A stretch of 64,000 nt of DNA from an uncultured Paracoccaceae bacterium (GTDB lineage: Bacteria > Pseudomonadota > Alphaproteobacteria > Rhodobacterales > Rhodobacteraceae), in the NCBI GenBank assembly GCA_934500835.1, contig CAKSTR010000004.1, forward strand, positions 260,356 through 324,355. The letters run 5' to 3'. A model generated the notes under the pieces. It did no database searches. It had not been told where the DNA came from and saw only the letters and a program-made list of their open reading frames with translations. The position numbers were made by a program, and so were the translations under genes. Numbering within the stretch: the stretch's first letter is position 1; every line of letters starts with the position of its first letter. Shown piece by piece: positions 45,530-64,000 of the stretch.

Positions 45530-45537
45530 ACAAGATC

Positions 45538-46058: not shown

Positions 46059-46136
46059 ACGCTTTCCTCCTTGATTGAGAAGGCTAGAATATCCCGCCTG
46101 AGACAGTTCGGAAAGGTGCCCATCATACCCAGCCCG

Positions 46137-46415
46137 TCACCCCTCTGGATTGAGGAACCGCGTCACCTTCCGCAGAAGGTCCATATCCGAAGGGGTCGGG
46201 AAAGTGGGGCTAGGATTGGGCAGCGCCTTGGGGTTGGCCTTCATAGCGCACAGGTCAGGCAGCAGCCATGCCAAGCGGTTAAGCTGGAAGCGGTCGGCTT
46301 CCTTTAGGCCATGGGCGGCAAGCGTGGCAGCGTCAGACCGTGCCAGCCGCCGCAACTCGGGCACGACATGGGCCTCCAGACCATCAAGGGTATAGGTCGG
46401 GGCTTCCTCTGACAT
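46137..46415 (-). CDS. Phage-remnant protein downstream of the portal gene
   Basis: 92 residues, MSEEAPTYTLDGLEAHVVPE then LRRLARSDAATLAAHGLKEA and an end LLRKVTRFLNPEG. Helical and overlapping the upstream gene (ATG within the TAA overlap). It probably belongs to the head-tail block of the older prophage; no family named. Confidence 0.55.
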   Translation of the reverse strand: MSEEAPTYTLDGLEAHVVPELRRLARSDAATLAAHGLKEADRFQLNRLAWLLPDLCAMKANPKALPNPSPTFPTPSDMDLLRKVTRFLNPEG

Positions 46416-47964: not shown

Positions 47965-48059
47965 AGTCTTACCTCCGAAGCAATTAACGCTCCACAGCCA
48001 GAGGCCCATATCGCCCCTTGGAATGACTCTCTTGTAAAACTTGAGTCGCCCGCAGCCTG

Positions 48060-48483
48060 ACTCTTCCATTCGCGCCGTGCCGTCACGCGCCCCACGGGTG
48101 GACACCTGCGACGAGAACACAGGCGAGAAGCCAGCCGCTTTCAGGCGGTCAAACTCGCTCACGGCGGTATTGGCAAGCAGCGTGTCCATCAGCGTTTGCA
48201 TCAGGATCGGTGCCCCGGCGATACGGACTTGCGAGGGGTCCGACAGCTTGGCCGTTTCCATGATTTCCACGGCCCGCAGCAGCAGGGCAGAGAAGGACGC
48301 TTTGGCGGTCAGGGCGGCAGTGCGGCCCCCGGTCAGAACGGTATTCAGGCCCGCAGGCTGTTCATCCGCACCCGTGCCTTGGAAGACGGCCTTGTCGATG
48401 CCTTCCCGCAGCACTTCGGACAGGTCGCGGCGCAGGATCATATCCAGCGCGCTGTTCTGCCGAATGGCTTGCCGGGTCGCCGA
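48060..48483 (-). pseudogene. Major capsid protein fragment truncated on both sides
   Basis: The readable part has HK97-capsid features: ALDMILRRDLSEVLREGIDK, then AVFQGTGADEQPAGLNTVLT and IAGAPILMQTLMDTLLANTA. The N-terminal region is replaced at about 48,484 by an IS3 transposase end on the opposite strand, and the C-terminal domain is missing before the portal start. Capsid upstream of portal is the reverse of the usual order, so a deletion or inversion has also occurred. Confidence 0.75.
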
Positions 48484-48645
48484 ATGGAAGGAGGACTACA
48501 ACCGACACAGACCCCACTCCGCCCTCGGCAATGTCCCACCGGCGGAATTTGCCATGAAGATCAGACTGGAAAAGCAAGCAGCTTAGACCCAGAAATCAAC
48601 CCAAGGACTCTCTCAAACGCTGGAGGGAACACGGGGCTCAGGTCA
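48484..48645 (+). mobile_element. 3' remnant of an IS3-family element
   Basis: The first 103 bp encode the C-terminus of an IS3-type transposase: EWKEDYNRHRPHSALGNVPP then AEFAMKIRLEKQAA and stop at 48,586. The following noncoding end, closing with GGGCTCAGGTCA near 48,645, looks like an IS terminus (complement TGACCTGAGCCC). The rest of the element is absent. Confidence 0.75.
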
Positions 48646-49147
48646 AAGGCACATAGCACGTAGCGCCACCGCTCGTTGACCACCCCTGTGTGTGATGCTG
48701 CTTTAATCCTTGAACGGCGGCTTTGAGAGTACAGCAAGCAGCATCCTGTCCGGCCGACTGGCATCTAAAGCCTCCCCCTGATCAGCCGACATGTATCCGA
48801 TTAGCCCCGAACGGCAAGCTGGGAGGACTCATGACAAAATGTCACTTTTGTCACGAGTGCTGCTGTCGCAGCCCGCCCTCAGGTGCCACCAGCCCGAGAG
48901 GATGCCCCGCAGTTTGGCATCGCGCCGTTGGTTCCCGGTCATTCCCGACAAGGCACTCCTGTTCCGCGCACCGATGTGGGAACACAAGTGGGAATGCGAA
49001 CCCTAATCTTTCAAATAATCAAGTAATATCAGTATGATAGATGAGATGTATGGCGGGCCGAAGCCGACGAAACAGAGAACTACACCTACGCTATAGCCCT
49101 CCAAAAGTGAGTCTCAAACCCATCCGGCTGCGTCATGCCCAGAAGCC
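48646..49147. other. About 500 bp without a confident gene
   Basis: The region joins the IS remnant to the defence operon. It contains a perfect repeat TGACAAAA/TTTTGTCA (48,832-48,853) that overlaps the start of a possible 68-residue reading from ATG 48,831 (MTKCHFCHECCC, good GGAGG site) whose later part looks noncoding. AT content rises near 49,010-49,050, where a promoter could lie. Confidence 0.35.
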
Positions 49148-49174
49148 GTAAAGCGTTGCTTTACAGGCAACGCT
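49148..49174. promoter_or_regulatory. Overlapping palindromes upstream of the HigA-like gene
   Basis: GTAAAGC (49,148-49,154) and GCTTTAC (49,158-49,164) flank GTT. Overlapping this, AGCGTTGC (49,152-49,159) pairs with GCAACGCT (49,167-49,174). Such nested palindromes are usual operators for HigA/XRE repressors. The site is 52 bp upstream of the HigA-like start codon. Confidence 0.65.
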
Positions 49175-49225
49175 AGGTCCGATACGCTGCATCCGACTCG
49201 ATGAACAATCACCGGACAGCGCGCG

Positions 49226-49549
49226 ATGACCGATGAGGATGGCCTTCGGCTAAAAAAGCCTTCCCATCCGGGCGGCTTCGTGAAGCACGAGGTCTTGAAA
49301 CCGCTCGGCCTGTCGGTGACTGAGGCGGCGGATGCGCTGGGCGTCACGCGCCCGGCACTGTCGGCGCTCCTGAACGAGCGCGCGCACCTGTCGCCGGACA
49401 TGGCGATCCGGATCGAAAAAGCCTTTGGCATCTCGATGGAGACGCTGATGCGCATGCAGAACAGCTACGACATTGCGCAGGCCCGCAAGCGGGAAGCGGA
49501 GATCAAGGTCGAGCGATACTCGGGAATGAATACGAAAGGGCGGGCATGA
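49226..49549 (+). CDS. Solitary HigA-like XRE repressor
   Basis: 107 residues. The HigA-type opening PSHPGGFVKHEVLKPLGLSV is followed by the helix-turn-helix EAADALGVTRPALSALLNER and AHLSPDMAIRIEKAFGISME (residues 30-75). HigA normally follows a RelE-like HigB toxin gene, but none lies upstream and no RelE-like reading is seen. Its stop overlaps the methyltransferase ATG (ATGA), so it is the first gene of the defence operon and may act as its controller. The palindromes upstream fit autoregulation. Confidence 0.85.
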   Translation: MTDEDGLRLKKPSHPGGFVKHEVLKPLGLSVTEAADALGVTRPALSALLNERAHLSPDMAIRIEKAFGISMETLMRMQNSYDIAQARKREAEIKVERYSGMNTKGRA

Positions 49550-51372
49550 CGGAGCTGAGTTTCAAGGGCAAAGAGTTTGTTTATAACCACCATCTGGCGG
49601 TGCCCTTCCGTCCGCTCGTGCCCGATGAAAGCAAGGGCATCGGTCCTGTCGCGCTTGACGGCAACCTCGTCATCCACGGCGACAACCTGCACGCGCTGAA
49701 GGCGCTCCTGCCGCTCTACGCGGGCAAGGTGGACTGCATCTTTATCGATCCGCCGTACAACACCGGCAACGAGGGATGGTGCTACGACGATAACGTCAAT
49801 GCGCCAATGATCCGGGAGTGGCTGGAGTCCAATCCGGTCGGTGTTGAGGACGGCCTACGTCATGACAAATGGTGTGCCATGATGTGGCCGCGCCTTCGGA
49901 TGCTCCATGAGCTGCTGGCGGACCATGGCGTCATCTTTATAACCATCGATGATAACGAGGCGCACCGCCTCACAAATATTTGCTACGAAATACTTGGTGA
50001 GGAAAATCATGTCGCCACCTTCATCTGGCGGAAAGTGGATAGCCCGAACGATAACAAGGTAGCTATCACACCTGACCATGATTACGTCCTCTGTTTTGCG
50101 CGCGATATTGGCTCTGCAAAGTTCAAGAGGATGATCGCCCCGTCCATCCTGAAAGCTTATCCGAACCGAGACGAGAACGGACGCCCTTTTAGAGATCGCC
50201 TTCTGAAGAAGAACGGACGGGCGAGTCTCCGCCGTGATCGGCCGACCATGTTCTTCCCGCTTGAAGACCCCGATGGAAATGAGGTTTTCCCCATACATGA
50301 TAACGGGGAAGAAGCGCGATGGTCGATGGGGAAGAAGGGCATCAAGAAACACAAAGATGCCGGTACATTGATCTGGAAGAGGATCGAAAAGCTCGGACGT
50401 GAAGTGTGGGAGCCTTACACCCGCGAGTTTGCGCCCGAAGACAATCCCACGCGGCCGTTTCCAACGATTTGGAGCGACGTGGATACGATGCGGCAGGCCA
50501 AGGCAATGCTCAGGAACATATTTGGCACGTCTGATTTGTTCGACACGCCGAAAACCGTGAAGCTTCTGGACAGGATCATCGACATTGCTGCCGATGATGA
50601 CGCAATTATCCTAGATTCCTTTGCGGGTTCTGCAACAACGGCTCACGCCGTGCTCGAAGCCAACAAGCGCGACGGCGGCAATCGCCGCTTCATTCTCGTG
50701 GAAATGGAGGAATATGCCGACAGCCTGACGGCAGAGCGCGTCCGGCGTGTCATCAACGGCTATGATTTCCAGGGCACACAGCGAACAGAGATGTTGCGGG
50801 AGCGGCTGAACTGGCGCGCGCTCAGCAATGCCGGAGAGCTGGCGCACAAGGTCGAAGGAATCGAGAACCTGCACGGCCACGAATACGACCGCATCAAGAA
50901 GGAAGTGAAAGACGGCGAGCTGATCGTCACCGGCGAAAAGACGGTGGCGGAACGCGCAGAAGGTCTTGGCGGCACCTTCACCTATTGCACCCTCGGCGAT
51001 CCCGTCGAACTGGACAAGGTGCTGAGCGGCGAAACCCTGCCGCCCTATGCCGGTCTCGGCGCGGCGCTGTTCCACATGGCGACCAATCAGGCGCTCGACC
51101 CCGCCGCTGTGCGCGAGGATGATTTTTATCTCGGTGCCATGGAAGGGCAACACGTCTGGTTGATCTACAAGCCCAATCTCGACTGGCTAAAGTCGCCGGA
51201 AGCGGCCTTGACGCTGGCGCGCGCCAAGGCATTCGCCGCCTCCGATCCGGACAAGCGGCATCTTGTCTTCGCCCCGGCGCGCTTCGTGAGCCACAAGATG
51301 CTGGCGGAACAGAACATCCCCGTGGAGTTCGTGCCGCTGCCTTTCGCGCTCTACCGGATAGATCGGAGCTGA
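49546..51372 (+). CDS. Type III-like DNA methyltransferase (Mod), beta class
   Basis: 608 residues. Motif IV DPPYNTGN is at residue 68, before the SAM-binding motif FAGSATTAHAV near 359, which is the beta-class order of type III Mod enzymes (N6-adenine or N4-cytosine methylation; DPPY favours N6-adenine). The C-terminal ~200 residues hold no further motif I recognise and may read the target. It overlaps the HigA-like gene by 4 nt and precedes the Res gene by 4 bp, the normal mod-res pairing. Confidence 0.92.
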   Translation: MTELSFKGKEFVYNHHLAVPFRPLVPDESKGIGPVALDGNLVIHGDNLHALKALLPLYAGKVDCIFIDPPYNTGNEGWCYDDNVNAPMIREWLESNPVGVEDGLRHDKWCAMMWPRLRMLHELLADHGVIFITIDDNEAHRLTNICYEILGEENHVATFIWRKVDSPNDNKVAITPDHDYVLCFARDIGSAKFKRMIAPSILKAYPNRDENGRPFRDRLLKKNGRASLRRDRPTMFFPLEDPDGNEVFPIHDNGEEARWSMGKKGIKKHKDAGTLIWKRIEKLGREVWEPYTREFAPEDNPTRPFPTIWSDVDTMRQAKAMLRNIFGTSDLFDTPKTVKLLDRIIDIAADDDAIILDSFAGSATTAHAVLEANKRDGGNRRFILVEMEEYADSLTAERVRRVINGYDFQGTQRTEMLRERLNWRALSNAGELAHKVEGIENLHGHEYDRIKKEVKDGELIVTGEKTVAERAEGLGGTFTYCTLGDPVELDKVLSGETLPPYAGLGAALFHMATNQALDPAAVREDDFYLGAMEGQHVWLIYKPNLDWLKSPEAALTLARAKAFAASDPDKRHLVFAPARFVSHKMLAEQNIPVEFVPLPFALYRIDRS

Positions 51373-51376
51373 CGCC

Positions 51377-53968
51377 GTGTTTCGCCAGCTCGATTATCAG
51401 GATCGCGTACTCTCGACGCTTGACGCCTATCTTGACCTCCTGAAGGAAAAGAAAACGCGCGCCGACAAGGTGGCGGCGCTCGCCGCGCAAGACCCGGACC
51501 TTGGCCTTGCCATTCCGGATTTCGCGAAAGAGGCTTGGGAAGCGATGAAGGCGGCGGGGAAGCTGCCCGCTTCCCGCGCCGCGATTCCGTTCTCGCCGCG
51601 CATGGACGGCTGCGAGCGGCCCGTGCCCAACGCCGTGCTGAAAGTGCCAACCGGCGGCGGTAAGACATGGCTTGCCGTCTCCGCCGTCTCGCGGGTGATG
51701 GGCCGCTATCTCGACCGCAACACTGGTTTCGTCCTGTGGATCGTGCCGAACGAGGCGATTTATACGCAGACGCTCAAGCACCTGAAGGATCGCCAGCACC
51801 CCTACCGTCAGGCGCTGGACCGCGCGGCGGCGGGGCGCGTGAAGATCATGGAGAAAACGGACCGGCTCGATGCGCGGGACGTGGAAACCAATCTCTGCGT
51901 CATGCTGCTGATGCTGCAATCCGCGAACCGCGAGACGCAGGATTCCCTGAAAATGTTTCAGGACCGGGGCGACGTGCACGGCTTCTTCCCGCCCGAAGGC
52001 GAACAACAGGCTCATCAGGCCGCCATCGACCGCACCCCGAACCTCTCCGCCTATACGGGCATGTTCCCGATGGTGAAGGATTCTCTCGGGAACGCCCTCA
52101 GGATCATCCGGCCCGTGGTCGTGATGGATGAAGGCCACCGCGCCATTTCCGATCTCGCCTTCGGCACGCTTTACGGATTCAACCCGTGTTTCGTGCTGGA
52201 GCTGACGGCCACGCCGCAGGATGTGCAGCCGCGCGGCGGCCGCAATCCGCGCGAAGGCCGCTATGCCAATGTGCTGGTGGAAGTGACGGGGCGCGAGCTG
52301 GACCGTGAGGGCATGATAAAGATGCCGCTCAACCTTGATCCCCGGCAGGGCAATGACTGGAAGGCGACGCTGAACGCAGCCCTTGCCAAGCTCAACGCGC
52401 TCGATGCCGAAGCCCGGCAACTGCGAGCCGATACGGGCCGCTATATTCGACCGATCATGCTGATCCAGGTCGAGCGCACGGGCGCGGATCAGCGCGAAAG
52501 CGGCCATATCCACGCCGAGGACGTGAAGGAATGGCTCCTGACGGCAGGTTTCGATCAGGCGGAAATCGCGATCAAAACCGCGCAGCAGAACGATCTCAAC
52601 GATCCGGAAAATCAGGACCTCTTGTCGCCCACCAACCGCGTGCGGGCGATCATCACGAAACAGGCCCTGCAAGAGGGCTGGGATTGCCCCTTCGCCTATG
52701 TGCTGTGCAGCCTTGCGGCCAGCGCCAACCTCAAGGCCATGACTCAGCTTGTCGGCCGCATTCTCCGCCAGCCCGGCGCGCTCAAAACGGACGTTGAAGC
52801 GCTCGATGAGTGCCACGTCATCACGCATCACGCCGATACTGCGACGGTCGTCGGTGCCATTAAAGACGGCCTCGAACAGGACGGCCTCGGCGATCTGGTC
52901 CTGCGCGTGACGCAGGACGACAAGAGCGGGACCGGTAAGACGGCCCGCACGATCAATCGCCGCCCGGCTTTCGCCTCCACGGAAATCTACCTGCCCAAGG
53001 TGATGGTGGTGGAAAGTGGCGACGCGCGCGAGCTGGACTACGAGACGGATGTGCTTTCCGCGCTCGACTGGCGGGGTTTCGATCCGCAGGACATCGCGGA
53101 TCGGGTGCCCGAAAACGCACAGGCGGCGGAAAGCCAGCTCCAACGGATCAGGCTTGCCGAGGACGGCGACGAATTGTTCGTCGGCGAGACTGTCGCCGCC
53201 AACGCGGAAATCCTCGCCTTCGATCCGGCGCATGCTGTCCGGATGATTTCCGACATCGTGCCGAATCCCTTCGTCGGCCGCGAGATTGTCGGCGCGACGG
53301 TTGCGGCCCTGCGGGCGCGGGGCTTCGATGACGCGAAGCTCGGCCTGCTCGCTAGCCTGATCGTGGAAGAGCTGCGCAAGGGCCTCGAAGCGGCGCGGAA
53401 CGCGCGCGCCGAAGCCCTGTTCAAGGCCGAGGTAGCGGCGGGACGCATCCAGTTCCGCTTGCGGCTCGATGGCGGCAACTGGCGAATGCCGTTCAGCATC
53501 GAAACGACGGAACCGGAGAACGCCCGCCAACTCCTTAACCGCGCCGGTGGCCCGCTCGAGAAGAGCCTGTTCGCTCCGGTCTATGAGAACGAGCTGAACA
53601 GCGACGAGCGGGATGTGGCGGTCTATCTCGACGGCGAAAAGACGCTGGCCTGGTGGCACCGCAATGTCGCGCGGACGCAATACGGCATTCAGGGATGGAA
53701 GAAGGCCAAAATCTATCCGGATTTCATCTTCGCCGTGCAGCGCGACGGCGAAGCGAAGCGTATCACGGTGCTGGAAACCAAGGGCGACCAACTCGACAAC
53801 CTCGACACGGCGTACAAGCGCGAGGCGCTTGCGTTCCTCTCGGACCATTTCGAATGGGACGAGGCAACGCCGGTCGGCGAGCTGGAACTGGTCAACAACG
53901 GCGAGACCGTGGAAGGCACCTTGATCCTGATGAGCGAATGGAAGGCGAAACTGCCCGCGTATCTCTGA
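51377..53968 (+). CDS. Type III-like restriction helicase-nuclease (Res)
   Basis: 863 residues, GTG start. Superfamily 2 helicase motifs: Walker A KVPTGGGKTWLA near 89-100, motif II MDEGHRA near 250 (DEGH instead of DEAH), motif III LTATPQ near 278 and motif VI QLVGRILRQP near 456-465. The C-terminus has the nuclease pattern PDFIFAVQRDGEA with VLETKGDQL (Asp near 782, Glu/Lys near 801), the PD-(D/E)xK site of Res subunits. It pairs with Mod; both carry complete motifs, so restriction is predicted to be functional. Confidence 0.9.
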   Translation: MFRQLDYQDRVLSTLDAYLDLLKEKKTRADKVAALAAQDPDLGLAIPDFAKEAWEAMKAAGKLPASRAAIPFSPRMDGCERPVPNAVLKVPTGGGKTWLAVSAVSRVMGRYLDRNTGFVLWIVPNEAIYTQTLKHLKDRQHPYRQALDRAAAGRVKIMEKTDRLDARDVETNLCVMLLMLQSANRETQDSLKMFQDRGDVHGFFPPEGEQQAHQAAIDRTPNLSAYTGMFPMVKDSLGNALRIIRPVVVMDEGHRAISDLAFGTLYGFNPCFVLELTATPQDVQPRGGRNPREGRYANVLVEVTGRELDREGMIKMPLNLDPRQGNDWKATLNAALAKLNALDAEARQLRADTGRYIRPIMLIQVERTGADQRESGHIHAEDVKEWLLTAGFDQAEIAIKTAQQNDLNDPENQDLLSPTNRVRAIITKQALQEGWDCPFAYVLCSLAASANLKAMTQLVGRILRQPGALKTDVEALDECHVITHHADTATVVGAIKDGLEQDGLGDLVLRVTQDDKSGTGKTARTINRRPAFASTEIYLPKVMVVESGDARELDYETDVLSALDWRGFDPQDIADRVPENAQAAESQLQRIRLAEDGDELFVGETVAANAEILAFDPAHAVRMISDIVPNPFVGREIVGATVAALRARGFDDAKLGLLASLIVEELRKGLEAARNARAEALFKAEVAAGRIQFRLRLDGGNWRMPFSIETTEPENARQLLNRAGGPLEKSLFAPVYENELNSDERDVAVYLDGEKTLAWWHRNVARTQYGIQGWKKAKIYPDFIFAVQRDGEAKRITVLETKGDQLDNLDTAYKREALAFLSDHFEWDEATPVGELELVNNGETVEGTLILMSEWKAKLPAYL

Positions 53969-53990
53969 CGGCGCGGTATTGGGGGGGCGT

Positions 53991-54206
53991 ATGGAATTTG
54001 ATCCGGCATTGTCATTCTCGGACAACCTTGCCCGTTTCCGGGCGGAAGCGGAGCGCATCGATGCCGATTGCGCCCGCATTCTTTTCGACAATTTGGCCCT
54101 GCTGGCGCGCGACGGTGATGCGACGCGCACCCGTCAGGCCGTTCAGGAGTTCAACCGGGCGATCCTCGCCGCGCTCGACGGCCTGCCGGAAGGGCCTGCG
54201 GCATGA
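53991..54206 (+). CDS. 71-residue protein between Res and the Rad50-like ATPase
   Basis: MEFDPALSFSDNLARFRAEA, then ERIDADCARILFDNLALLAR and VQEFNRAILAALDGLPEGPA. It is predicted to be two or three helices, acidic, without a known motif. The ATG follows a run of seven G; its end overlaps the next ATG by 4 nt, so it is translated with the ATPase and may be its subunit. Not recognised. Confidence 0.7.
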   Translation: MEFDPALSFSDNLARFRAEAERIDADCARILFDNLALLARDGDATRTRQAVQEFNRAILAALDGLPEGPAA

Positions 54207-56701
54207 GCCGGTATTTTCTAGCTTCCGCCGCCATTGAGGGATTTCGCGGCATCAATAATGACGGCGATCCCCTCGTGCTGAAGTTCAAGCACGATGCCGT
54301 CAATTCCGTCCATGCGCCCAATGGGGTCGGAAAAAGCTCGATCTTCGAAGCGCTGCACTTTGCCCTGCACGGCACGGTGCCGCGCCTGGAAGGGATGCAG
54401 GACGCCGAACAGGGTGCCAGTTACATCGTCAACAAGTTCCATCCGGCGCAACAGGCGACGGTCGCCCTTGTTTTCAAGAGCGATGACGGCACGCCCGATG
54501 TGTCGATCACCGTCACCCGGACGGCGGCGGGCGGACGGGTCGTCACGTCTCCTTCCGGCCACGCCGATCCGGACAGCTTCCTCGCCGATCTTTGCGAGGA
54601 TTTCGTGCTGGTCGATTACCCGCGCTTTGCCTCCCTCGTGGACTGCTCGGCCTTGGAGCGCGGGCGCTCCTTCGCCTCGCTGGTCGGCATGAGCCGGTAT
54701 TCCCAGCTCCGGCAGGCGCTCGACGGGGCCAAGAACACCCGCAACATCAATGGCGATCTTGGGCTGTCCACGCTTGACACCGAAGTGACCGCCGAAAACC
54801 GCGCCTTGGGGGTTGTTGAACAGCGCATCCTCGCCGCGCATCAGGAAGTGACCGGCGTGGCCGGTGGCCAGATGGCGGATACAGCCGCGCTGAAAGCGCA
54901 GGTGACGGCCGGATTGGCGGGCATCGCGCTTTTCACGCCGTTGCTCGCCAACGCCTCGGTGATGGACTTCGATTTTGACGCCGCTGAAAAGATCGTCGAT
55001 CAGGAAGAAGGCGGCGCGGCGCGGAAAACTCTCGACGGCCTCAACACCGCCGTCACGACGCTCGGCGGCTTGCAGGTCTCGGCGGCGGAACTTGCCGAGA
55101 TCGACGCGCTGGTGACGGCGGCCAAGGCGCGCGACGATGCGATGCGCAACGTCGGTGCCGCCAGCCTGCACGCCTTGCTGAAAAGCGCGCTGTCGGTTGT
55201 GAACAGTGCGGACTGGCACGATCCGAAGGTCTGCCCTGTCTGCGAAAAGGCTGGCGACGGGCCGCTTCAGGATCAACTGGAAGCGAAGATCGCGCTTTAC
55301 GACGAGGCCGATCAGCTCGACGCGGAGCTGAAACGGCAGGTGCAGAGCGCGGGATGCGTTGGCAAGCTCCGGCAGCTTGAAGAGCAGGCGCGTCTTGGCG
55401 TTGTGGACGCTGATCGCATCGCGCCGGTCCTGACGCTGGCCGCGCGCCAGTCGTCGGTTTCGACGGCGGACCTGGAACGCGCAAAGGATGCGCTTGGCGC
55501 GCTCGAAGCGAAGCGGGTTGACGTGCTCACGGCAATCAATGCCGAGATAGCGACGCTGCAAGCCGGCTTGCCGCCGTCGCTGGTCGCCGTCACCCGCACC
55601 CTTGGGCAGGCCAAGCAATTCCGCGACGCCATGAACGAATACGAGCGGACCCTTCCGGCGCTCGCGGCCAAACGGGCCAAGCTCGCAAAGCTCAATCGCT
55701 GGAAGACGTTCATCACGAACGTAGCCGGGCAGTTCGCAACGGCGGAAAGCGCGCTCGCCAATGCACGCATCACGGATATTCAGGCTAGTTGTCAGGAGCT
55801 TTTCGGGCATCTGGTGCGCGGGGGTCCGGACGTGCGGCCGACGCTGAACCGGGCGCAGAATACCGAACAGGTAGATTTGAAGCTCGCCGATTTCTTCGGC
55901 CTTCCAAACCAAAGCGCGCGGGCGCTCCTGTCGGAGAGCTACCGCAATGCCGTCGCCGCCTCCATCTTCATGGCGGCGGCTACCCGGCAACAGGGCGTAC
56001 CGCGCTTCATGGTGTTGGATGATGTGACGTCAAGTTTCGATGCCGGACATCAATTCAGCCTGATGGATACGATCCGGACGAAATTGCGCTTTGGCGCGGC
56101 GAACGGTCTGCCCGGCGGACTTCAATTCATCATCCTCAGCCATGATACGAGCCTTGAGAAGTATTTTGACCGGCTCAACGGCACGACGGAGTGGAATCAC
56201 CAAAAGCTACAAGGCATGCCGCCCCGTGGGCGGCTAATGATCGCCACGCAACAGGCGGATCGCCTGAAGGCGCAGGCGGAGCAATATCTGAATGCGGGGC
56301 AGATAGATATCGGTGAACCGTTTGTCCGCCAGTATCTTGAATACAAGCTCGGCCAGATCATCACCCGTTTAGAGGTTCCGGTGCCGCCCGATTACGCGAC
56401 GCGGGGCGACAAGCGTACCTTGTCCACGTATGTGGACGCGATCACGGCGGCGGTCGCGCTCTATCAGGCGGCGGGGCGCTGCGTCCTCTCCGCTCAACAG
56501 GTCGCCGACCTTCAGAACCACCACATGCCTTCCATCATGGCGAACTATGTCAGCCACTATGAGACAGGCGCAGGCAATCCGTTCAACGCCTATGCCTTGC
56601 TCGGCGTTCTGCAAAGTGTGGACGCGCTTGCCGATTGTTTCTGCTGGACCGATCCTGCCAACAATCAGCGGAAATATTATCGACGACTTGATCGGCAGTA
56701 A
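54203..56701 (+). CDS. Rad50/SMC-like ATPase with a CxxC hook
   Basis: 832 residues. Walker A APNGVGKSSIFEAL at 38-51 within an SMC-like N-terminal lobe (IEGFRGINNDGDPLVLKFKH). Coiled coil to either side of a CPVC motif at residues 344-347, a Rad50-type zinc hook. The C-terminal lobe has LSESYRNAVAASIF (signature-like, near 577), Walker B FMVLDDVTSSFD near 603-614 and an H-loop in ILSHDTSLEKY. A further ~150 residues follow the ATPase. The arms are far shorter than in true Rad50. It probably senses or handles DNA ends for the restriction operon. Confidence 0.85.
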   Translation: MSRYFLASAAIEGFRGINNDGDPLVLKFKHDAVNSVHAPNGVGKSSIFEALHFALHGTVPRLEGMQDAEQGASYIVNKFHPAQQATVALVFKSDDGTPDVSITVTRTAAGGRVVTSPSGHADPDSFLADLCEDFVLVDYPRFASLVDCSALERGRSFASLVGMSRYSQLRQALDGAKNTRNINGDLGLSTLDTEVTAENRALGVVEQRILAAHQEVTGVAGGQMADTAALKAQVTAGLAGIALFTPLLANASVMDFDFDAAEKIVDQEEGGAARKTLDGLNTAVTTLGGLQVSAAELAEIDALVTAAKARDDAMRNVGAASLHALLKSALSVVNSADWHDPKVCPVCEKAGDGPLQDQLEAKIALYDEADQLDAELKRQVQSAGCVGKLRQLEEQARLGVVDADRIAPVLTLAARQSSVSTADLERAKDALGALEAKRVDVLTAINAEIATLQAGLPPSLVAVTRTLGQAKQFRDAMNEYERTLPALAAKRAKLAKLNRWKTFITNVAGQFATAESALANARITDIQASCQELFGHLVRGGPDVRPTLNRAQNTEQVDLKLADFFGLPNQSARALLSESYRNAVAASIFMAAATRQQGVPRFMVLDDVTSSFDAGHQFSLMDTIRTKLRFGAANGLPGGLQFIILSHDTSLEKYFDRLNGTTEWNHQKLQGMPPRGRLMIATQQADRLKAQAEQYLNAGQIDIGEPFVRQYLEYKLGQIITRLEVPVPPDYATRGDKRTLSTYVDAITAAVALYQAAGRCVLSAQQVADLQNHHMPSIMANYVSHYETGAGNPFNAYALLGVLQSVDALADCFCWTDPANNQRKYYRRLDRQ

Positions 56702-56740
56702 TCGCCGAAACTGCTAAAGAAGGCGAAGGGGGAGTGGGCG

Positions 56741-58663
56741 ATGGCATCCGAACAGCAGTTGTTGGCATTTGATCAGCGTTTCTTGGACCGCCATGCTGGA
56801 CCGATCATTTCTGATCTTTCGGTCGCCTTGGTCGAACTTGTCGCGAATGCTTGGGATGCCTACGCGACAGAGGTGGACATAACTTGGCCGACAAATGACG
56901 GTGCCCGGAAATTCTCGATTAAGGATAACGGTCGCGGCATGACCGCCGCGCAGTTCGAGCAGCGCTGGGGCGTCTTTGATTATAATCGGGTAAAGGCCGA
57001 GGGCGAGTATGTCTCACCCCCCACAGAACTCCCCGAACTGGCGCCGCGCCGAGTATACGGACGCAATGGTAGAGGGCGGCACGGCGGCTTCGCCTTCTCC
57101 AATCCCTATGAAATAATCATAGAGGCCGCTGGCGAAAAAGTAGCCTATCGGGTTTCCAGGGGCGGGCAGCGCCCCTTCTATTGGGAAATCATTAAGCGTG
57201 AACAGAGCACCGGGCACGGTGTGGAAATTCGCGCGGTAGAATCGACGCGGCTACGGCTTAGCGCCGCTGATGTTCGAGAGGTGCTTGGAACACGCTTTCT
57301 GACAGACCCGAACTTCAAGGTGTCGGTGGACAGCCAGCCCGTCACTTTCGATGACATTCCCCAGGATTTTTTGCGGGAGAGCTTCGTCGATATCCCCGAT
57401 ATCGGTCGTGCGACAATCCTCATGATCGACTCGCAGCGGGCCGACCGGACAACGCGGCAGCACGGCATCGCTTGGCATGTCAACAACCGGCTGGTCGGTG
57501 ATTGCGGCTGGCGCGGCACCGACTATGAACGCGTGCTCGACGGGCGGACGAGCGAAGCCAAGCGCTTCACGTTCATCGTCTTTGCCGACTTCTTGGCGGA
57601 CAGCGATGCCGTGCTGCCAGACTGGTCGGGGTTCCAGCCCAACAATGAAATCTGGAAGAAGACTCAGATCGCCGTACAGGACAAAATTCGCGAAGAAATT
57701 GCTGCGTTCAATTTCGAGCGGCGTTCGGAAGCCAAGGAGGCGGTTCGCGAACGCTATGCTTCGACCGTCGTCAGGATAGCTCCGAGCGCGCGTGAGCGGT
57801 GGAACAGCTTTGTCGATCAAGTCATCGATACCTGCCCCGGCATCTCTCCCGAACAGATTGATCAAGTGGCTGGCATTCTTGCTAATTTGGAGGCGTCGTC
57901 GTCCCAATACAGCTTGCTGGCGCGACTGCATGGCCTTCAACCAGGCGAGCTGGACCAATTGGACGGCATTCTCGCAGATTGGAGTGTCGCGACCGCTAAG
58001 CTGGCGCTAGATGAAATCCAGAATCGACTGAGGCTGATCGGCGAACTGCACGAAAAGCTTCGCGATGAACGCGCCGATGAAGTCCGCGAGCTTCAGCCTC
58101 TTATTGAGCGGAGTCTATGGGTATTCGGTCCTGAGTTCGAAAGCATCGAGTTCACGTCGAATCGCGGCATGTCGGAGGTTATCAGACGGTTGCTTGGCGG
58201 AACCGCACAGGGCAGCCTGAACCGGCCCGACTTCGTTATTCTACCCGATAGCAGTGTAGGACTGTTTGCCCGCCCCGCGTTCGATGAGCAGCACGAAGTT
58301 ATTGGCGTGGAGCACTTGATTGTTGTCGAGTTGAAGCGGCCCGGCATTCCTATCGTCATGGATCAGAAGAACCAAGCATGGAAGTATGTCGTTGAATTGC
58401 AGACTCACGGATTGATCGACGATTCTACGCGTGTGACCTGTTTTGTCCTGGGATCGCGACTAACGCCGCGTGAAGGCGTCCGTGAGGAAGGGCGGACCAA
58501 GATTATCCCCATGGCCTATGAAACATTTATCCGACGTGCCGAAACTCGGATGCTTAATCTGTATGCACGGCTTTCCGAGGCACCATTCCTGCGCCAAGCT
58601 GGCTTGGATGCCGACAGCTTCGTGAAAGAGCCAATCGCACGCCAAGGTGGTTTCGACGTGTAG
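56741..58663 (+). CDS. GHKL (MORC/MutL/Hsp90-like) ATPase fused to a PD-(D/E)xK-like nuclease domain
   Basis: 640 residues. Bergerat ATP site: N-box ELVANAWDAYA near 32-42 (Asn36), G1 DNGRGM at 62-67 and G2-type GRNGRGRHGGFAF at 107-119. A middle S5/transducer-like region follows (GIAWHVNNRLVGDCGWRG near 243). The C-terminal third has RPDFVIL (Asp497) and IVVELKRPG (Glu530, Lys532), the PD...ExK order of restriction-like nucleases, then QAWKYVVEL. Bacterial MORC-like ATPases in restriction operons are known. It starts 39 bp after the Rad50-like gene with a GGGGGAG ribosome site. Confidence 0.85.
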   Translation: MASEQQLLAFDQRFLDRHAGPIISDLSVALVELVANAWDAYATEVDITWPTNDGARKFSIKDNGRGMTAAQFEQRWGVFDYNRVKAEGEYVSPPTELPELAPRRVYGRNGRGRHGGFAFSNPYEIIIEAAGEKVAYRVSRGGQRPFYWEIIKREQSTGHGVEIRAVESTRLRLSAADVREVLGTRFLTDPNFKVSVDSQPVTFDDIPQDFLRESFVDIPDIGRATILMIDSQRADRTTRQHGIAWHVNNRLVGDCGWRGTDYERVLDGRTSEAKRFTFIVFADFLADSDAVLPDWSGFQPNNEIWKKTQIAVQDKIREEIAAFNFERRSEAKEAVRERYASTVVRIAPSARERWNSFVDQVIDTCPGISPEQIDQVAGILANLEASSSQYSLLARLHGLQPGELDQLDGILADWSVATAKLALDEIQNRLRLIGELHEKLRDERADEVRELQPLIERSLWVFGPEFESIEFTSNRGMSEVIRRLLGGTAQGSLNRPDFVILPDSSVGLFARPAFDEQHEVIGVEHLIVVELKRPGIPIVMDQKNQAWKYVVELQTHGLIDDSTRVTCFVLGSRLTPREGVREEGRTKIIPMAYETFIRRAETRMLNLYARLSEAPFLRQAGLDADSFVKEPIARQGGFDV

Positions 58664-58820
58664 TTGATCTGGCAAGAAAAAAGTTCGGTAACTTAGGGCT
58701 CTGCCCTCGGCGCACTTCGAAAGGCTTCCGCCCAGCTTCCTCCGCGCGTGACGCGCTCCGTGCAGCCGGTTCCCCGCGAAGCCTCCCTCCGTTTGCACAC
58801 CCGGTCTCGGCGACGGCCAG

Positions 58821-58854
58821 AAGGTCAGGCGCGGCGTTCCGCTTCGCTGACCTT
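58821..58854. promoter_or_regulatory. Hairpin upstream of ardA
   Basis: AAGGTCAG (58,821-58,828) and CTGACCTT (58,847-58,854) form perfect arms around an 18-nt region that can pair further. It lies 20 bp before the ardA start codon. ArdA genes of conjugative elements are known to be expressed early in recipients, in some plasmids from folded single-stranded promoters; such a role here is speculative. Confidence 0.4.
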
Positions 58855-58874
58855 CAGACCCGAGGATCAGAGAC

Positions 58875-59384
58875 ATGACCAACGTATCCGACAGCACCCC
58901 CCGCATCTATATCGCTTGCCTCGCCGCCTACAACAACGGCCATCTGCACGGAGCTTGGATCGACGCGGATCAGGACGCGGACCAGATTAGGGACGCGATT
59001 GCCGCGATGCTTGCCCGTTCCCCTGTCGAGGACGCGGAGGAATACGCCATTCACGATTACGAGGGCTTCGAGGGCGTCAGCATCTCGGAATATGCCGGCA
59101 TCGACACCGTGGCGCGGGTGGCGACTTTCATCGCAGAGCATGGCGCACTTGGCGCGGGCCTGCTGGAGCAGTTCAGCGGCGACATGGACCAAGCCGAATC
59201 CGCCTTTGAGGATTGCTATCATGGTCAGTTCGCCAGCCTCGCCGACTACATGGAGGAATTGACCACCGAGAGCGTCACGATCCCAGAGGCGCTGCGCTAC
59301 TATGTCGATTGGGAGGGGATGGCGCGCGACGCCGAGATGGGCGGCGATCTGTTCACTATCGAGACGGCGCACGGCGAGGTCTGA
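58875..59384 (+). CDS. ardA: Anti-restriction protein ArdA, C-terminus probably cut by an IS
   Basis: 169 residues. The ArdA opening PRIYIACLAAYNNGHLHGAW at residues 9-28 is diagnostic, and the protein is strongly acidic (DADQDADQIRD; SGDMDQAESAFEDCY) as expected for a DNA mimic that blocks type I restriction enzymes. It ends GGDLFTIETAHGEV, and its stop TGA (59,382-59,384) is the first three bases of the IS terminal repeat, so the original last residues appear lost. ArdA usually travels with conjugative elements. It lies 211 bp after the defence operon. Confidence 0.9.
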   Translation: MTNVSDSTPRIYIACLAAYNNGHLHGAWIDADQDADQIRDAIAAMLARSPVEDAEEYAIHDYEGFEGVSISEYAGIDTVARVATFIAEHGALGAGLLEQFSGDMDQAESAFEDCYHGQFASLADYMEELTTESVTIPEALRYYVDWEGMARDAEMGGDLFTIETAHGEV

Positions 59385-59420
59385 ACCGCGCCGGGTTTGC
59401 CGGAGGCTGATTTTGGTTAG

Positions 59421-60326
59421 TTACGCGGCCATGTCTTCAGTTTCCAGAGCGGCGTAGAAGTTTGCCTCTGCTTCCGCTGGCGGAATGTTCCCGATCGGCT
59501 CAAGCAGGCGGCGGTGGTTGAACCAGTCGACCCATTCGAGGGTGGCATACTCGACGGCCTCGAAGTTACGCCACGGTCCGCGACGGTGGATGACCTCGGC
59601 CTTGAAGAGACCGTTGACCGTCTCCGCCAAGGCGTTGTCGTAGCTGTCGCCGACACTGCCCACGGATGGTTCGATTCCGGCCTCACCCAACCGCTCGGTG
59701 TAGCGAATGGACAGGTATTGCGACCCGCGGTCGGAATGGTGGACGAGCCCCGCGCCCTTGACTGGGCGGCGATCGTGGACGGCCTGTTCGAGAGCATCGA
59801 GCACGAAGCCTGCGTGTGCGGTTTGGCTCGCCCGCCAGCCGACGATCCGGCGGGCGTAGGCGTCGATGACGAAGGCGACATAGACGAACCCTCGCCAAGT
59901 GGCGACGTAGGTGAAATCGCTGACCCAGAGCATGTTCGGCGCGGGCACGCGGAACTGGCGGTTCACCTTGTCCAAAGGGCACGGGGCCTTCTTGTCGGGG
60001 ATGGTCGTCTTGTGCGGCTTGCCCCGGATGATGCCTTGAATACCCATGCCCTTCATCAGCCGGGCCACGGTGCAACGGGCAACCGCGAAGCCTTCCCGAT
60101 CCAGCTGACGCCAGACCTTGCGCACTCCGTAGACACGCCAGTTCGCCTCGAACACGCGCTCGATCTCGGGCCGCAGCGCAGCGTCCCGCCGGGCACGATC
60201 CGATAGCCGGGCCGGATCGGCCCGCTTCGCCAGGTGATCGTAGTAGGTGGACGGGGCGATCGGCAGAACCTTGCAGATCGGCTCGACCCCATGTTCACCA
60301 CGATGATCGTCAATGAACCCGACCAT
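59421..60326 (-). CDS. IS3-family transposase OrfB
   Basis: 301 residues from [20 protein letters not shown]. An HTH_21-type region is followed by the rve integrase core: [20 protein letters not shown] (first Asp), [20 protein letters not shown] (second Asp) and the Glu in [19 protein letters not shown], a complete DDE triad. The ATG overlaps the orfA stop (TGATG); an OrfAB fusion by -1 shifting in the overlap (frame open upstream to 60,500) is also possible, as usual in IS3 elements. Confidence 0.93.
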
Positions 60327-60649
60327 CACTTCGACCGGCGGTCGAGCTCCGCCATCGCAAAATATGCGCTCGCCTTGCGCAGGATCTCGTTGGCCTGGCG
60401 CAACTCCCGGTTCTCCCGTTCCAGCGCCTTCATCTTCTCTGCCATGTCGGTCGGGATGCCCGCGCGCTTGCCGCTGTCGACCTCGGCCTTCTTCACCCAC
60501 TCGTTCAGGGTCTGGGGCGCACAGCCGATCTTCGCGGAAATCGACATGACCGCCTGCCAGCGCGATCCATGCTGACCCTCATTGTCGAGAACCAGCCGCA
60601 CCGCACGCTCGCGCACTTCGGGGGAAAACTTGTTCGTCGTCTTGCTCAT
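60326..60649 (-). CDS. IS3-family transposase OrfA
   Basis: 107 residues: [20 protein letters not shown], helix-turn-helix ([20 protein letters not shown] near 37-56), then a leucine-zipper-like helix ([20 protein letters not shown] near 73-92). It binds the IS ends and provides the N-terminal part of the transposase. Complete, with orfB directly after it, so the element looks able to move. Confidence 0.93.
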
Positions 60650-60702
60650 GATGCTCCATCCTACTCAGGAGTTGGAGCCTCCGGCAAACCCGGAGCGGTT
60701 CA

Positions 60703-61060
60703 ATTCGGCAGCTGCTGGAACCGCCAGCTTAGCATTACGCGCGTCGCCGCCGTGAGCAAGGGCGGCGGCGCGGAGCTTCTCAGATGGCCTAGCGTCGACC
60801 GCCGTTATGGGCGCAACGAACGGGCAATCGCATATGATTCATGCGAGCGCTACGTTGGACGCTGACCCTAGGCCTGTGGGAGCCGGCCGCGCGCGGAGTC
60901 CGGGACGTAGTGCGAGTCGCGCGCCCGGCGGCGCCGTAGAGCAACCATCGCCGATCTACGGAACAGGTTCCGGTTGCGAGAACTGCATGCGTTCGATCCC
61001 TAGGCACGAACGTTCACACCTTGAACTTCGATGACAGTGTCGGCTACTCCTCGTTCGTGA
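60703..61060. other. Noncoding junction between the IS and the rRNA-modification operon
   Basis: No credible ORF with a ribosome site in about 360 bp. Base composition falls from left to right. The sequence next to the IS does not continue ardA, so the IS right side borders unrelated DNA. Confidence 0.4.
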
Positions 61061-61090
61061 TTGACCCCCGCTCTTCCGTATGGTTCTAAT
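61061..61090 (+). promoter_or_regulatory. Sigma-70-type promoter of the rRNA-modification operon
   Basis: TTGACC (61,061-61,066) and TCTAAT (61,085-61,090) are separated by 18 bp and match the -35 and -10 consensus at five of six bases each. They lie about 120 bp upstream of the RsmI-like start. Confidence 0.5.
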
Positions 61091-61208
61091 AGACTTGGTA
61101 CGGCTTACACGTCGCCGACGGTTGGGGGGCATCCGCCGCATCTGTTTATTCGTCGGTGCAATAGCTATCGACCTCATGATCAGCCGCATCGCTTAGCTTA
61201 GGTACGGC

Positions 61209-61943
61209 ATGGCGGCAATTTTCACCGGGAGGTCGACGGCTACAGTGTCCTGCTTGTTTGTCGTGGCCACTCCGATAGGGAATTTGGACGATATTTCTGT
61301 CAGAGCGCTAACTACTCTTCGCGAGATCGAAGTCCTAGTATGCGAGGATACCCGCGTCACACGTAAGTTGCTCAGCCATTTTGAGATCCCGAAGCCTAGA
61401 TTTCTTTTTTCGGCACACGAGCACAACGAGCATCAAGCAGTCGCACGTGTTGTTGGACTGCTCGATAAGGGTACAGATGTCGCATACACTAGCGACGCCG
61501 GGATGCCGGGGATCAGCGATCCGGGGTACCTATTGATCAGGGGAGCCATGGCGGCTGGACATCGGGTTGTTGCCATTCCCGGACCGAGCGCAGTGACGAC
61601 AGCCCTGGTAGTCTCGGGTCTTCCCTCCAACGGATTTGCTTTCTTTGGTTTCCCCCCACGGCGATCGGGAAAGCGGACCCATTTTCTGGAACGGATTGCA
61701 AGCTATCCCGAAACACTCGTCTTCTTCGAGTCGCCTCATAGGCTGCGAGCCTTCCTTGAGGATGCGCTGACTGTCCTCGGCAATCGCAGGGCAGCAATCG
61801 CGGTTGAACTGACCAAGATCTTCGAAACCGTCGAGCAGGCTTGGCTTGCCGAGCTAGTTGAGATGTTTGACACGCCCCCAAAGGGCGAGGTGACAGTCGT
61901 CATCGCTGGTGACAACGCCAAGTTCCGGCTTGCCCAGCCATGA
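61209..61943 (+). CDS. rsmI: RsmI-like 16S rRNA (cytidine-1402-2'-O)-methyltransferase
   Basis: 244 residues. The RsmI pattern is clear: LFVVATPIGNLDDISVRALT near 16-35, VLVCEDTRVTRKLLSHFEIP near 42, AHEHNEHQAV, YTSDAGMPGISDPGYLLIRG near 92-111 and PGPSAVTTALVVSGLP near 125. It methylates the 2'-O of C1402 in 16S rRNA with SAM. A housekeeping rsmI is expected elsewhere, with different neighbours, so this is probably an accessory copy. First gene of an operon; stop overlaps the next ATG (ATGA). Confidence 0.88.
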   Translation: MAAIFTGRSTATVSCLFVVATPIGNLDDISVRALTTLREIEVLVCEDTRVTRKLLSHFEIPKPRFLFSAHEHNEHQAVARVVGLLDKGTDVAYTSDAGMPGISDPGYLLIRGAMAAGHRVVAIPGPSAVTTALVVSGLPSNGFAFFGFPPRRSGKRTHFLERIASYPETLVFFESPHRLRAFLEDALTVLGNRRAAIAVELTKIFETVEQAWLAELVEMFDTPPKGEVTVVIAGDNAKFRLAQP

Positions 61944-63070
61944 CAAGCACTGCCGTAGGCCGTGCCGCCGCGCATACGCGCCGCGGCAGACAGCCCAAAC
62001 CGAGCTTTCTTCCAGACGCGACACGAGCGTTGGTCAAGGGTCTTGATTCGGGAGATCTCGAAAGTCTTGGCATACCTTCCCTAATGGTGAACGCCTTTCA
62101 TCTGGCGAACCGGCCAGGCACAGGTGCCGTCCGAAGCGTTGGCGGCGTTCACAAGTTTATGGGGTGGAATGGCCCAGTTTGGACGGACTCAGGTGGATTT
62201 CAGCTATTCTCATTGATCCGAGAAAACAGCACAAACGGACGCATTTCCGACGATGGTTTCGCACACTTCTCGCAGGACAACGGGCGTACGCTCCTGACGC
62301 CAAGCAAGTCAATTTCCAATCAGTGGCGCCTCGGAGCTGATGTCCAGTTTTGCCTCGACCAATGTACCCACCCTGATGATTCAAGGAGCGCTCAGGAGGA
62401 AAGCGTTCAACGAACCATCCAGTGGGCCAAGATCTGCAAGGCTGAGTTTGTGCGGCGATGTGAGTCCAGTCGCTTGGACCACGCAAGCCGGCCTTTGCTT
62501 TTTGGAGTGGTGCAGGGCGGCCAAGAACGCGATCTGCGGGAGCGGTGCGCGGAGGCGCTGCTGGAAATTGGATTTGATGGGTTTGGCTTCGGCGGTTGGC
62601 CCATCAGCGAAGATGGCGGTCTTGTGGACATGGTGTACCGTGTCGCCGAACTGATCCCGCGAGAATTCCCGCTGCATGGCCTAGGGATTGGTAGACCCGA
62701 CAACATCATCTCGGCCTGGCGGGCGGGCTACACAAGCTTTGATTCTGCTTTACCAACACGGAACGCACGGCGCGGACGGCTTCTAATTGCGGGAGATCTG
62801 GGCGCAAGCATTCAGGGCGATCCAAACTTCTTCAATTATATGTTCATTACAGAGAAGCAATATTATCGCGATGATCGCTCAGTGGACGAGACTTGCCCGG
62901 GGCCCTGCTGCACCCGTTATTCCCGCGCTTATCTGCATCATTTGTTTCGGATCGGCGACGCTTTGGCGCAGAGACTGGCCACAATACACAATTTAACTTT
63001 CATGCAGCGATTGATGCACGCCGCCATCAGCTACATGGACTGTGGAGACGAAGATGAGCCGCAAAGTTGA
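61940..63070 (+). CDS. Divergent tRNA-guanine transglycosylase-like protein
   Basis: 376 residues. TGT fold markers: AHTRRGRQPKPSFLPDATRA at the start, VWTDSGGFQLFS near 80 with the active-site Asp, CLDQCTHPDD near 133, LFGVVQGGQERDLRERCAEA near 185 and SFDSALPTRNARRGRLLIAG near 263 with the nucleophile-type Asp. Changes: GGLAVGE, which contacts the base, is here FGGWPISEDG; and the CxCxxC zinc site reads CPGPCC before TRYSRAYLHHL. The base used may therefore differ from preQ1. It is coupled to the genes on both sides. TGT-like genes beside G1405 methylases are known from the rmtD context. Confidence 0.8.
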   Translation: MTSTAVGRAAAHTRRGRQPKPSFLPDATRALVKGLDSGDLESLGIPSLMVNAFHLANRPGTGAVRSVGGVHKFMGWNGPVWTDSGGFQLFSLIRENSTNGRISDDGFAHFSQDNGRTLLTPSKSISNQWRLGADVQFCLDQCTHPDDSRSAQEESVQRTIQWAKICKAEFVRRCESSRLDHASRPLLFGVVQGGQERDLRERCAEALLEIGFDGFGFGGWPISEDGGLVDMVYRVAELIPREFPLHGLGIGRPDNIISAWRAGYTSFDSALPTRNARRGRLLIAGDLGASIQGDPNFFNYMFITEKQYYRDDRSVDETCPGPCCTRYSRAYLHHLFRIGDALAQRLATIHNLTFMQRLMHAAISYMDCGDEDEPQS

Positions 63071-63860
63071 AATTGATGTCGAACGCGTTCTTTCAGTTGT
63101 GATGCAGTCTCCAAAGTACCGGGATATCAGCGCAGATACGGTTCGCAACATCACCATCTGGGCTTCGCGGCGTGCTGAGTCGGAAAAGGAGGCAGTGAAG
63201 CTAGTCAAACGTAAACTTCATCAGATTTTCGCTGCTTTCCTTCCTTTGTCCGCAAAACGTAGTGTTGAACGGCTGGTCGATAAGACTCTTGATGGCGACG
63301 CTGACCAGTCCTTTGCCGCCTGCAAAGAAATCCTCGCGCTTCATGCTTCGACAGAAGAGCGACTTCCTATTCTACATGAGTACGGCGTACTACTGCGTTC
63401 CCTAGTCCCGCCTAACGGGACCGTGTTGGACATCGCTTGCGGGCTCAATCCCTTCACCCTGCCTTTCGTCGGCTTGCAGGGAGCCCGATACATCGCCTCT
63501 GACATTGACTGTAGGCTTATGACCGACATCGACCGGTTCCTGAGGGCGATTGATCCGCGCAACGCGGGCGTCTGCAGTGATGCGCTTGTTTCTCGCCCTA
63601 GTGAGCGTGTGGATGTAGTCCTTTTATTGAAGGCGGTCACCACACTTGAGCAGCAGGAGAAGGGCGCCTCGGCATCGCTGATTGCCGGTTTGCCTGCTCC
63701 AACGATCTTGATGTCGTTTCCCACGCGCAGCCTTGGCGGCCACCGTCGTGGCATGGAGGCGACCTACCGGAGTCTGGCTAGCTCCCTCTTCGATGGACTG
63801 GGATTGGTCGAGGAGGTGCTGCTCGGCACAGAGTTGTTTTTTATCCTGCGTCGAGACTAA
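63054..63860 (+). CDS. 16S rRNA (guanine-1405-N7)-methyltransferase, ArmA/Rmt type
   Basis: 268 residues from MSRKVEIDVERVLSVVMQSP. Aligned by eye with ArmA: KRKLHQIFAAF (ArmA KKKLHQIWGSY), LHASTEERLPIL (IHSSTNERVATL), SAM motif VLDIACGLNPFTLPF (ILDFGCGFNPLALPW), DVVLLLKAVTTLEQQE (DVVFLLKMLPVLKQQD) and MSFPTRSLGGHRRGMEATY (ISFPIKSLSGKEKGMEENY). The family methylates G1405 of 30S subunits, conferring high-level resistance to 4,6-disubstituted aminoglycosides. It overlaps the TGT-like gene by 17 nt; start chosen after a GGAG site. Subtype not determinable here. Confidence 0.88.
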   Translation: MSRKVEIDVERVLSVVMQSPKYRDISADTVRNITIWASRRAESEKEAVKLVKRKLHQIFAAFLPLSAKRSVERLVDKTLDGDADQSFAACKEILALHASTEERLPILHEYGVLLRSLVPPNGTVLDIACGLNPFTLPFVGLQGARYIASDIDCRLMTDIDRFLRAIDPRNAGVCSDALVSRPSERVDVVLLLKAVTTLEQQEKGASASLIAGLPAPTILMSFPTRSLGGHRRGMEATYRSLASSLFDGLGLVEEVLLGTELFFILRRD

Positions 63861-63916
63861 TCCGTTTGCACCAAGCGGGTGGAGCCGCTGGTGCCTGGCT
63901 TACTTCCTCAGGTCTG

Positions 63917-64000
63917 CGATGTGTGAGCTACCCCCCGAAAATCGGACAGTGACGGAAGCTACGATCTGAAGTCTGCTGATCTCCAAGCACGAGGAGATCA
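63917..64000. mobile_element. Possible IS left end at the window edge
   Basis: TGTGAGCTACCCCCCGAAAA followed by TCGGACAG resembles the terminal repeats of several IS3-family elements, and the AGGAGATCA at the edge would be a ribosome site for an orfA. The rest lies outside the window, so this is tentative. Confidence 0.35.

Follow-up and report, generated by a model that had tools for sequence, protein, structure and literature searches.

The closest described relatives of the enzymes considered here are the bacterial tRNA-guanine transglycosylase (TGT) Tgt, the DNA-guanine transglycosylase DpdA, the 16S rRNA C1402 2'-O-methyltransferase RsmI and the 16S rRNA G1405 methyltransferases (Sgm, RmtF, RmtB, RmtC and ArmA; Pfam FmrO). 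To our knowledge, transglycosylases are known on tRNA and, in the case of DpdA, on DNA, but not on rRNA. The enzymes of the decoding site were reported to interfere with each other, with ArmA said to block the RsmI methylation at C1402, for which Lioy 2014 is cited, and RmtC and Sgm said to block RsmF at C1407 (PMC12406665). In Vibrio cholerae, transposon sequencing (TN-seq) showed that inactivating tgt, rsmI, rsmH or rsmF lowers the fitness in tobramycin below the minimal inhibitory concentration (MIC); the same paper records that rsmF mutants were earlier tied to more resistance and that a tgt mutant had no clear change in the tobramycin MIC (PMC10117853). Moreover, tgt was found to be needed for tobramycin tolerance in this species via queuosine at position 34, Q34 (PMC11703503). 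Our literature search, outside of which most subscription papers lay, recognised no report on a tgt-rmt-rsmI link, on a TGT paralogue that acts on rRNA or on the GGWP motif described below. Here, we analysed a window of 64,000 nucleotides (the whole stretch, i.e., positions 260,356 to 324,355 of contig CAKSTR010000004.1, assembly GCA_934500835.1) from an uncultured Paracoccaceae bacterium, which carries overlapping genes for an RsmI, a paralogue of TGT that we designate TGT' and a G1405-type methyltransferase, hereafter Rmt. The triplet is a real recurring unit of known kinds of enzymes with one clearly diverged member, and we read it, with a probability of roughly 0.6, as one conserved operon that would modify the ribosomal decoding centre and in which TGT' would have a new target or a new base. 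Its features are:

61209..61943, + strand: rsmI, short form (244 aa), predicted 16S rRNA C1402 2'-O-methyltransferase (TIGR00096)
61940..63070, + strand: tgt' (376 aa), tRNA-guanine-transglycosylase paralogue of the GGWP clade (PF01702)
62591..62602, + strand: GGWP codons (residues 218-221), replacing the GGLAVG/GGLSVG of ordinary bacterial TGT (invariant in the TGT alignment)
63054..63860, + strand: rmt (268 aa from the ATG), predicted 16S rRNA G1405 N7-methyltransferase (PF07091)

The open reading frames (ORFs) and the profile scans confirmed the initial annotation of overlapping genes for an RsmI, a TGT and an FmrO/Rmt methyltransferase. The first two genes share 4 bp (ATGA at 61940-61943) and the last two share 17 bp (63054-63070), while ORF calling also offered a GTG at 63042 as an alternative start of rmt. 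The window RsmI passed TIGR00096 with 220.4 bits (cut-off 167.9), covering only positions 2-225 of the 275 in the profile, the C-terminal part of which was unmatched. The window Rmt passed Pfam PF07091 (FmrO) with 154.4 bits (cut-off 27) and has the fold of the solved FmrO/Rmt members over its full length, so that its family membership is supported by both profile and fold. The window TGT scored 295.3 bits against PF01702; it had been taken for an ordinary TGT, but turned out to be the most unusual of the three. A single promoter, which had also been proposed, found no support, as the region 60600-64000 contained no sigma-70-like site, the one promoter type that was scanned, compared with a mean of 1.3 in shuffled sequences. 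The nearest relatives in the protein database, at 62% for Rmt and 70% for TGT, are each located on a 3127-base NCBI contig, which, judging from its length, is probably one and the same.

The tree placed TGT' in a clade apart from the other TGTs (its rows comprised 17 of the 30 Anaerolineae TGT' loci, 13 of the 87 loci with other TGTs and 17 of the 120 proteins listed). The GGWP motif was present in all of the 162 TGT' sequences (42 loci, with the window included and the split locus L182 left out, and the 120 proteins listed) and in none of the 88 other TGTs (80 loci and eight further ones; L003-L005, at 351-389 bits, are among the 88; L and G numbers are our handles for loci and genomes). Conversely, the GGLAVG/GGLSVG loop was found in 71/88 other TGTs and in 0/162 TGT'. 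The catalytic residues D102, D156 and D280 were retained in 100% and Q203 in 98% of TGT', and the three aspartates are also present in the window copy. Other residues, which belong to the base pocket and the side facing the RNA, were consistently replaced across the clade, i.e., V45D, L231W and A232P in 100%, M260L in 99% and Y258H in 93%, with E235 being mostly lost. Y330 and H333, which we take to form the dimer interface, were conserved. TGT' probably replaces a guanine by a different base in an RNA of the translation machinery, in a way that differs from plain queuosine-34 formation. Its identity as a DpdA was rejected based on a score of 35.1 bits with NF041059, whose cut-off is 200.

The triplet recurs beyond this strain, in several bacterial groups that are unrelated to each other, in line with the initial annotation. 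A scan of genome contigs with the TGT alignment yielded 80 loci, of which only L001 and L002 belonged to the clade of the window TGT (476-477 bits, the rest being at most 389); in both, Rmt directly adjoins TGT. In L002, from a Firmicutes bin, the order is TGT'-Rmt-RsmI. In L001, from an Anaerolineaceae bin, it is RsmI-TGT'-Rmt-second Rmt-RsmF-like, followed farther along by an RsmE-family gene and another RsmI that are encoded on the opposite strand; the RsmF-like gene had its best match in the RsmF model, under the cut-off (252.6 vs 588 bits). Among 199 Anaerolineae genomes, the TGT profile separated 29 genomes at 471-535 bits from the remaining matches listed (at most 321 bits) by a clear gap. 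TGT' was also found in 3/385 Alphaproteobacteria, in 8/16 genomes of one order that includes all three of these, and in 3/68 Hydrogenedentota. The rsmI-tgt'-rmt order was kept in 8/8 alphaproteobacterial and 3/3 Hydrogenedentota loci. Rmt was present in all 42 of the TGT' genomes that were found and lies beside TGT' in the 12 that are not Anaerolineae. In the Anaerolineae, in which 43/199 genomes have Rmt, it occurred in 30/30 genomes with TGT' (G145, described below, included) compared with 13/169 without it (Fisher p 1e-25, uncorrected for kinship). Across the loci of other genomes, an Rmt on the same strand was located within 0.7 kb of TGT' in 34/42 and at a distance of 4.2 kb in another locus, the gaps being measured between ORFs from the first start codon, which overstates the overlaps. 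RsmI adjoins TGT' or comes next past Rmt in 18/42 loci (8/8 alphaproteobacterial, 3/3 Hydrogenedentota, the Firmicutes one and 6/30 Anaerolineae). As a control, 87/87 other TGT loci had neither Rmt nor RsmI in the available stretch, which reached 3 kb or more to either side in 57/87; nine of these loci are viral, came from a viral scan with the TGT alignment and fell outside of the TGT' clade. No TGT' was detected in 247 Acidobacteriota genomes (E 1e-105, up to eight candidates per genome scored), a result that is uninformative since there was no known positive.

Some of these loci show further peculiarities. At 11849-14888 of L001, the second, divergent Rmt-like gene and the RsmF-like gene overlap in an operon-like manner 3' of the triplet, and several other Anaerolineae genomes had two Rmt matches, which form a tandem in G138 and are separated by 12 kb in G074 and G121. 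In G145, tgt' is split between two frames (L182, 4415-5576) with the adjacent rsmI and rmt open. A tgt'-rmt fusion in L206 was rejected because the long ORF holds an overlapping frame.

TGT' is an extra enzyme in its hosts since a further TGT match was found in 34/34 genomes checked (29/29 Anaerolineae, G145 and 4/4 others). This further TGT was full-length at 274-305 bits in 20/29 Anaerolineae genomes and scored 276 bits in G145, among the matches listed; in three alphaproteobacterial genomes and in that of the Firmicutes bin, TGT' was accompanied by one TGT of 272-292 bits. QueC, the preQ0 synthase, was found in 5/42 TGT' genomes and had no match in 37/42, including all eight alphaproteobacterial ones, although those checked carry two TGTs; the genomes may be incomplete. 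Most hosts of TGT' therefore probably import their deazaguanine, provided that they use such a base.

In the RsmI tree, from which one 41-bit hit was omitted, the window RsmI clusters with those of the alphaproteobacterial and Hydrogenedentota triplets in a single clade (98/92), while the operon RsmIs of the Anaerolineae mostly group with other Anaerolineae RsmIs. The exceptions are L001, whose RsmI pairs with that of L166, and L146, whose RsmI falls among the long forms; the RsmI of the Firmicutes bin groups weakly with one Anaerolineae row. Because these operon RsmIs belong to different lineages, separate assembly is suggested, and the linkage seems to have arisen, or to have been re-made, more than once. 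The Anaerolineae have a long form (profile to position ~272) and a short form (to ~230), the latter occurring in operons with Rmt and also in genomes without Rmt, among the matches listed. The initial annotation had described the operon RsmI as an accessory beside a housekeeping copy, which is only partly valid: two RsmI matches were found in three of ten genomes (G003, G009 and G138), and in seven of them the operon rsmI was the sole match (G543, G239, G466, G004, G048, G126 and G145), the first four being the three alphaproteobacterial genomes and the Firmicutes genome and the other six of the ten being Anaerolineae with an operon RsmI. Thus, in many cases the RsmI of the operon is itself the housekeeping enzyme. 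The interplay between RsmI and a G1405 methylase, which had also been assumed, has a counterpart in print in the reported block of RsmI by ArmA.

The tree of Rmt contained hits of at least 150 bits and at least 230 residues, with 24/66 database proteins and without RmtC, D, E, F, G and ArmA. In this tree the window Rmt groups with three metagenomic proteins beside the alphaproteobacterial triplets, within a set of 23 rows (97, SH-aLRT only) that excludes RmtA, RmtB and RmtH. These three are 30-33% identical to the window Rmt and sit in another set, which in this quick tree weakly includes the Rmt of the Firmicutes bin. The earlier proposal that such a methylase might be an environmental ancestor of the clinical genes was consequently rejected for the clinical types placed in the tree. 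No relative was obtained when genome contigs were scanned with the window Rmt by itself or viral sequences with alignment A2.

Regarding the substrates, the order of action and the phenotype, we infer the following from the sequences. The short RsmI is predicted with high confidence to place a 2'-O-methyl group on C1402, and Rmt is, with little less confidence, expected to place an N7-methyl group on G1405, so that the two would form a matched pair on the decoding centre. RsmI might be retained beside Rmt because the methylation of G1405, or the methylase itself, would block an unmatched RsmI. TGT' would then add a further base change at the decoding centre or on a tRNA, and the net effect would be an altered decoding accuracy and aminoglycoside binding. 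That the target of TGT' lies within the decoding region of the 30S subunit itself is possible, albeit with the odds against it. Still more tentative, and in our view unlikely, is the boldest form of this proposal, i.e., that TGT' would be the first rRNA guanine transglycosylase, replacing a guanine of the 16S decoding region by another (deaza)guanine beside the N7-methyl-G1405 and 2'-O-methyl-C1402 that its operon partners would make. As a lead only, the two arginines that presumably touch the base 3' of the target are retained in TGT' and the opposite side is altered, so that a sequence like C-G-U would be a suitable target; in the 16S rRNA, U1406 comes after G1405. An N7-methyl group and a 7-deazaguanine are impossible on the same base, so if both modifications are located in helix 44, they must concern different guanines or compete.

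Several observations weigh against the reading of the triplet as a conserved operon of the decoding centre with a retargeted TGT'. Rmt occurred without TGT' in 13 Anaerolineae genomes, and seven of these (G075, G122, G141, G159, G175, G189 and G202) hold an rsmI-rmt pair, which shows that the pair does not need TGT'. In 7/42 loci, one of which is at a contig end, no Rmt was located near TGT', Rmt being elsewhere in those genomes, and RsmI adjoined TGT' in only 6/30 Anaerolineae loci. Many of the surveyed genomes are metagenome-assembled and related to one another, and the second TGT is known by count alone in 9/29 Anaerolineae genomes. At the level of the proteins, the window Rmt is below the cut-off of the NCBIfam equivalog NF000466 (199.4 vs 250 bits), and the window TGT misses the cut-off of the TIGR00430 equivalog (278.1 vs 306.75 bits). 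Of the zinc ligands C318, C320, C323 and H349, the window TGT' has G at 320 with the other three present; the idea that the window copy is a lone wreck of the zinc site was rejected because other members of the clade vary at this position as well, 78% of TGT' having C320. Finally, R286 and R289, which presumably touch U35 of tRNA, on the 3' side of the target base, are conserved in TGT' and fit a tRNA-like target, and in four Anaerolineae loci (L125, L126, L129 and L130) tgt' is immediately preceded by a gene of one QueA cluster, the L125 member of which matched QueA with 487 bits, over the cut-off; this fits a link to queuosine.

The last two points also speak for the most serious alternative, which we rate as somewhat short of even odds: TGT' would be a wobble enzyme of tRNA with another base preference, e.g., for a salvaged deazaguanine, and the operon a unit of translation fidelity and aminoglycoside tolerance that acts on tRNA and the ribosome separately. 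The conserved Y330 and H333 agree with it, as do the tobramycin phenotypes of tgt, rsmI, rsmH and rsmF in V. cholerae and the role of Q34 in tolerance, and the scarcity of QueC makes base salvage plausible. However, the further TGT that accompanied TGT' wherever this was checked and the absence of an Rmt link from all of the other TGT loci stand against it, as does the lack of a clear change in the tobramycin MIC of the V. cholerae tgt mutant. Moreover, the pocket of TGT' is neither of the preQ1 type (GGLAVG) nor of the queuine type (GG[LS][AS]G) (PMC11570991).

An acquired aminoglycoside-resistance gene that was moved along with two housekeeping genes by insertion sequences is improbable as an explanation of the unit, although the surroundings of the window copy do invite it. 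The triplet is flanked as follows:

59421..60649, - strand: left flank, IS3-family transposase genes, outside of the unit (plasmid matches)
63924..64000, + strand: right flank, start of a second IS3-family element, outside of the unit and truncated by the window edge (Paracoccus yeei match)

The insertion sequences on both flanks match Paracoccus and relatives, which makes a Rhodobacterales background likely. The best plasmid matches of the left element are Paracoccus copies (93.3% over the full length and 97.8% over 84%), and only 3 bases separate the P. yeei stretch that matches the right flank from the IS3-family transposase gene that follows it. The G+C content of the triplet is 55.9%, compared with 64.8% in 1-44000 and 60.8% in 44000-59400 of the window; other stretches of the 44000-59400 island are as low as the triplet. 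TGT' was found in 0/394 genomes of a Rhodobacteraceae sample (E 1e-105, up to five candidates per genome scored), a zero that is uninformative as a survey since there was no known positive; given this count, the window copy was probably imported. The triplet DNA, however, had no match in a search of plasmid DNA, its gene order is kept in half of the genomes of one alphaproteobacterial order and in Hydrogenedentota in other neighbourhoods, and the RsmI lineages of the Anaerolineae are mostly separate. Acquisition thus accounts for the window copy and not for the unit. A chance neighbourhood of housekeeping RNA-modification genes is effectively refuted, for even though both rsmI and tgt are common and genes for RNA modification are often neighbours, the linkage is repeated with short overlaps, in more than one order and in several phyla, and was absent from 87/87 other TGT loci.

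Further into the window, the island at 49546-59384 encodes a type III-like DNA methylase, an SMC-like ATPase, a HATPase protein and an ArdA antirestriction protein, and is adjoined by a phage integrase at 44.1-45.3 kb. We read an open frame of 863 aa downstream of the type III-like methylase as a candidate restriction partner.

If TGT' does act on rRNA, whole bacterial lineages would read codons with a rebuilt decoding centre. The retained catalytic residues, the changed contacts to the base and the RNA and the presence of a G1405 methylase in 42/42 genomes make it possible to test directly for a novel rRNA modification. Outside of clinics and antibiotic producers, G1405 methylases can be encoded on the chromosome as part of a decoding-site operon that includes a matched RsmI, which bears on how such methylases are tolerated, since ArmA was reported to block RsmI at C1402 (PMC12406665).

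Compared with the known systems, each member of the triplet has a recognisable counterpart from which it departs. RsmI scores above the TIGR00096 cut-off and differs from the known enzyme in that the operon form lacks the last ~50 profile positions and sits with Rmt and TGT'. Rmt is a relative of Sgm, RmtF, RmtB, RmtC and ArmA (Pfam FmrO) that falls below the equivalog cut-off, lies on its own branch with environmental relatives and is a recurrent partner of TGT' and RsmI. TGT' differs from the bacterial Tgt (Zymomonas mobilis, PDB 1ozm and others) by GGWP in place of GGLAVG, by V45D, Y258H and M260L, by the loss of E235, by its separate clade and by its coexistence with another TGT, and it has GGWP where the queuine-type bacterial TGT has the GG[LS][AS]G loop. 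DpdA provides a precedent in that it is a TGT paralogue acting on a different nucleic acid; its similarity to TGT' is weak (35 bits), and the operon partners of TGT' modify RNA.

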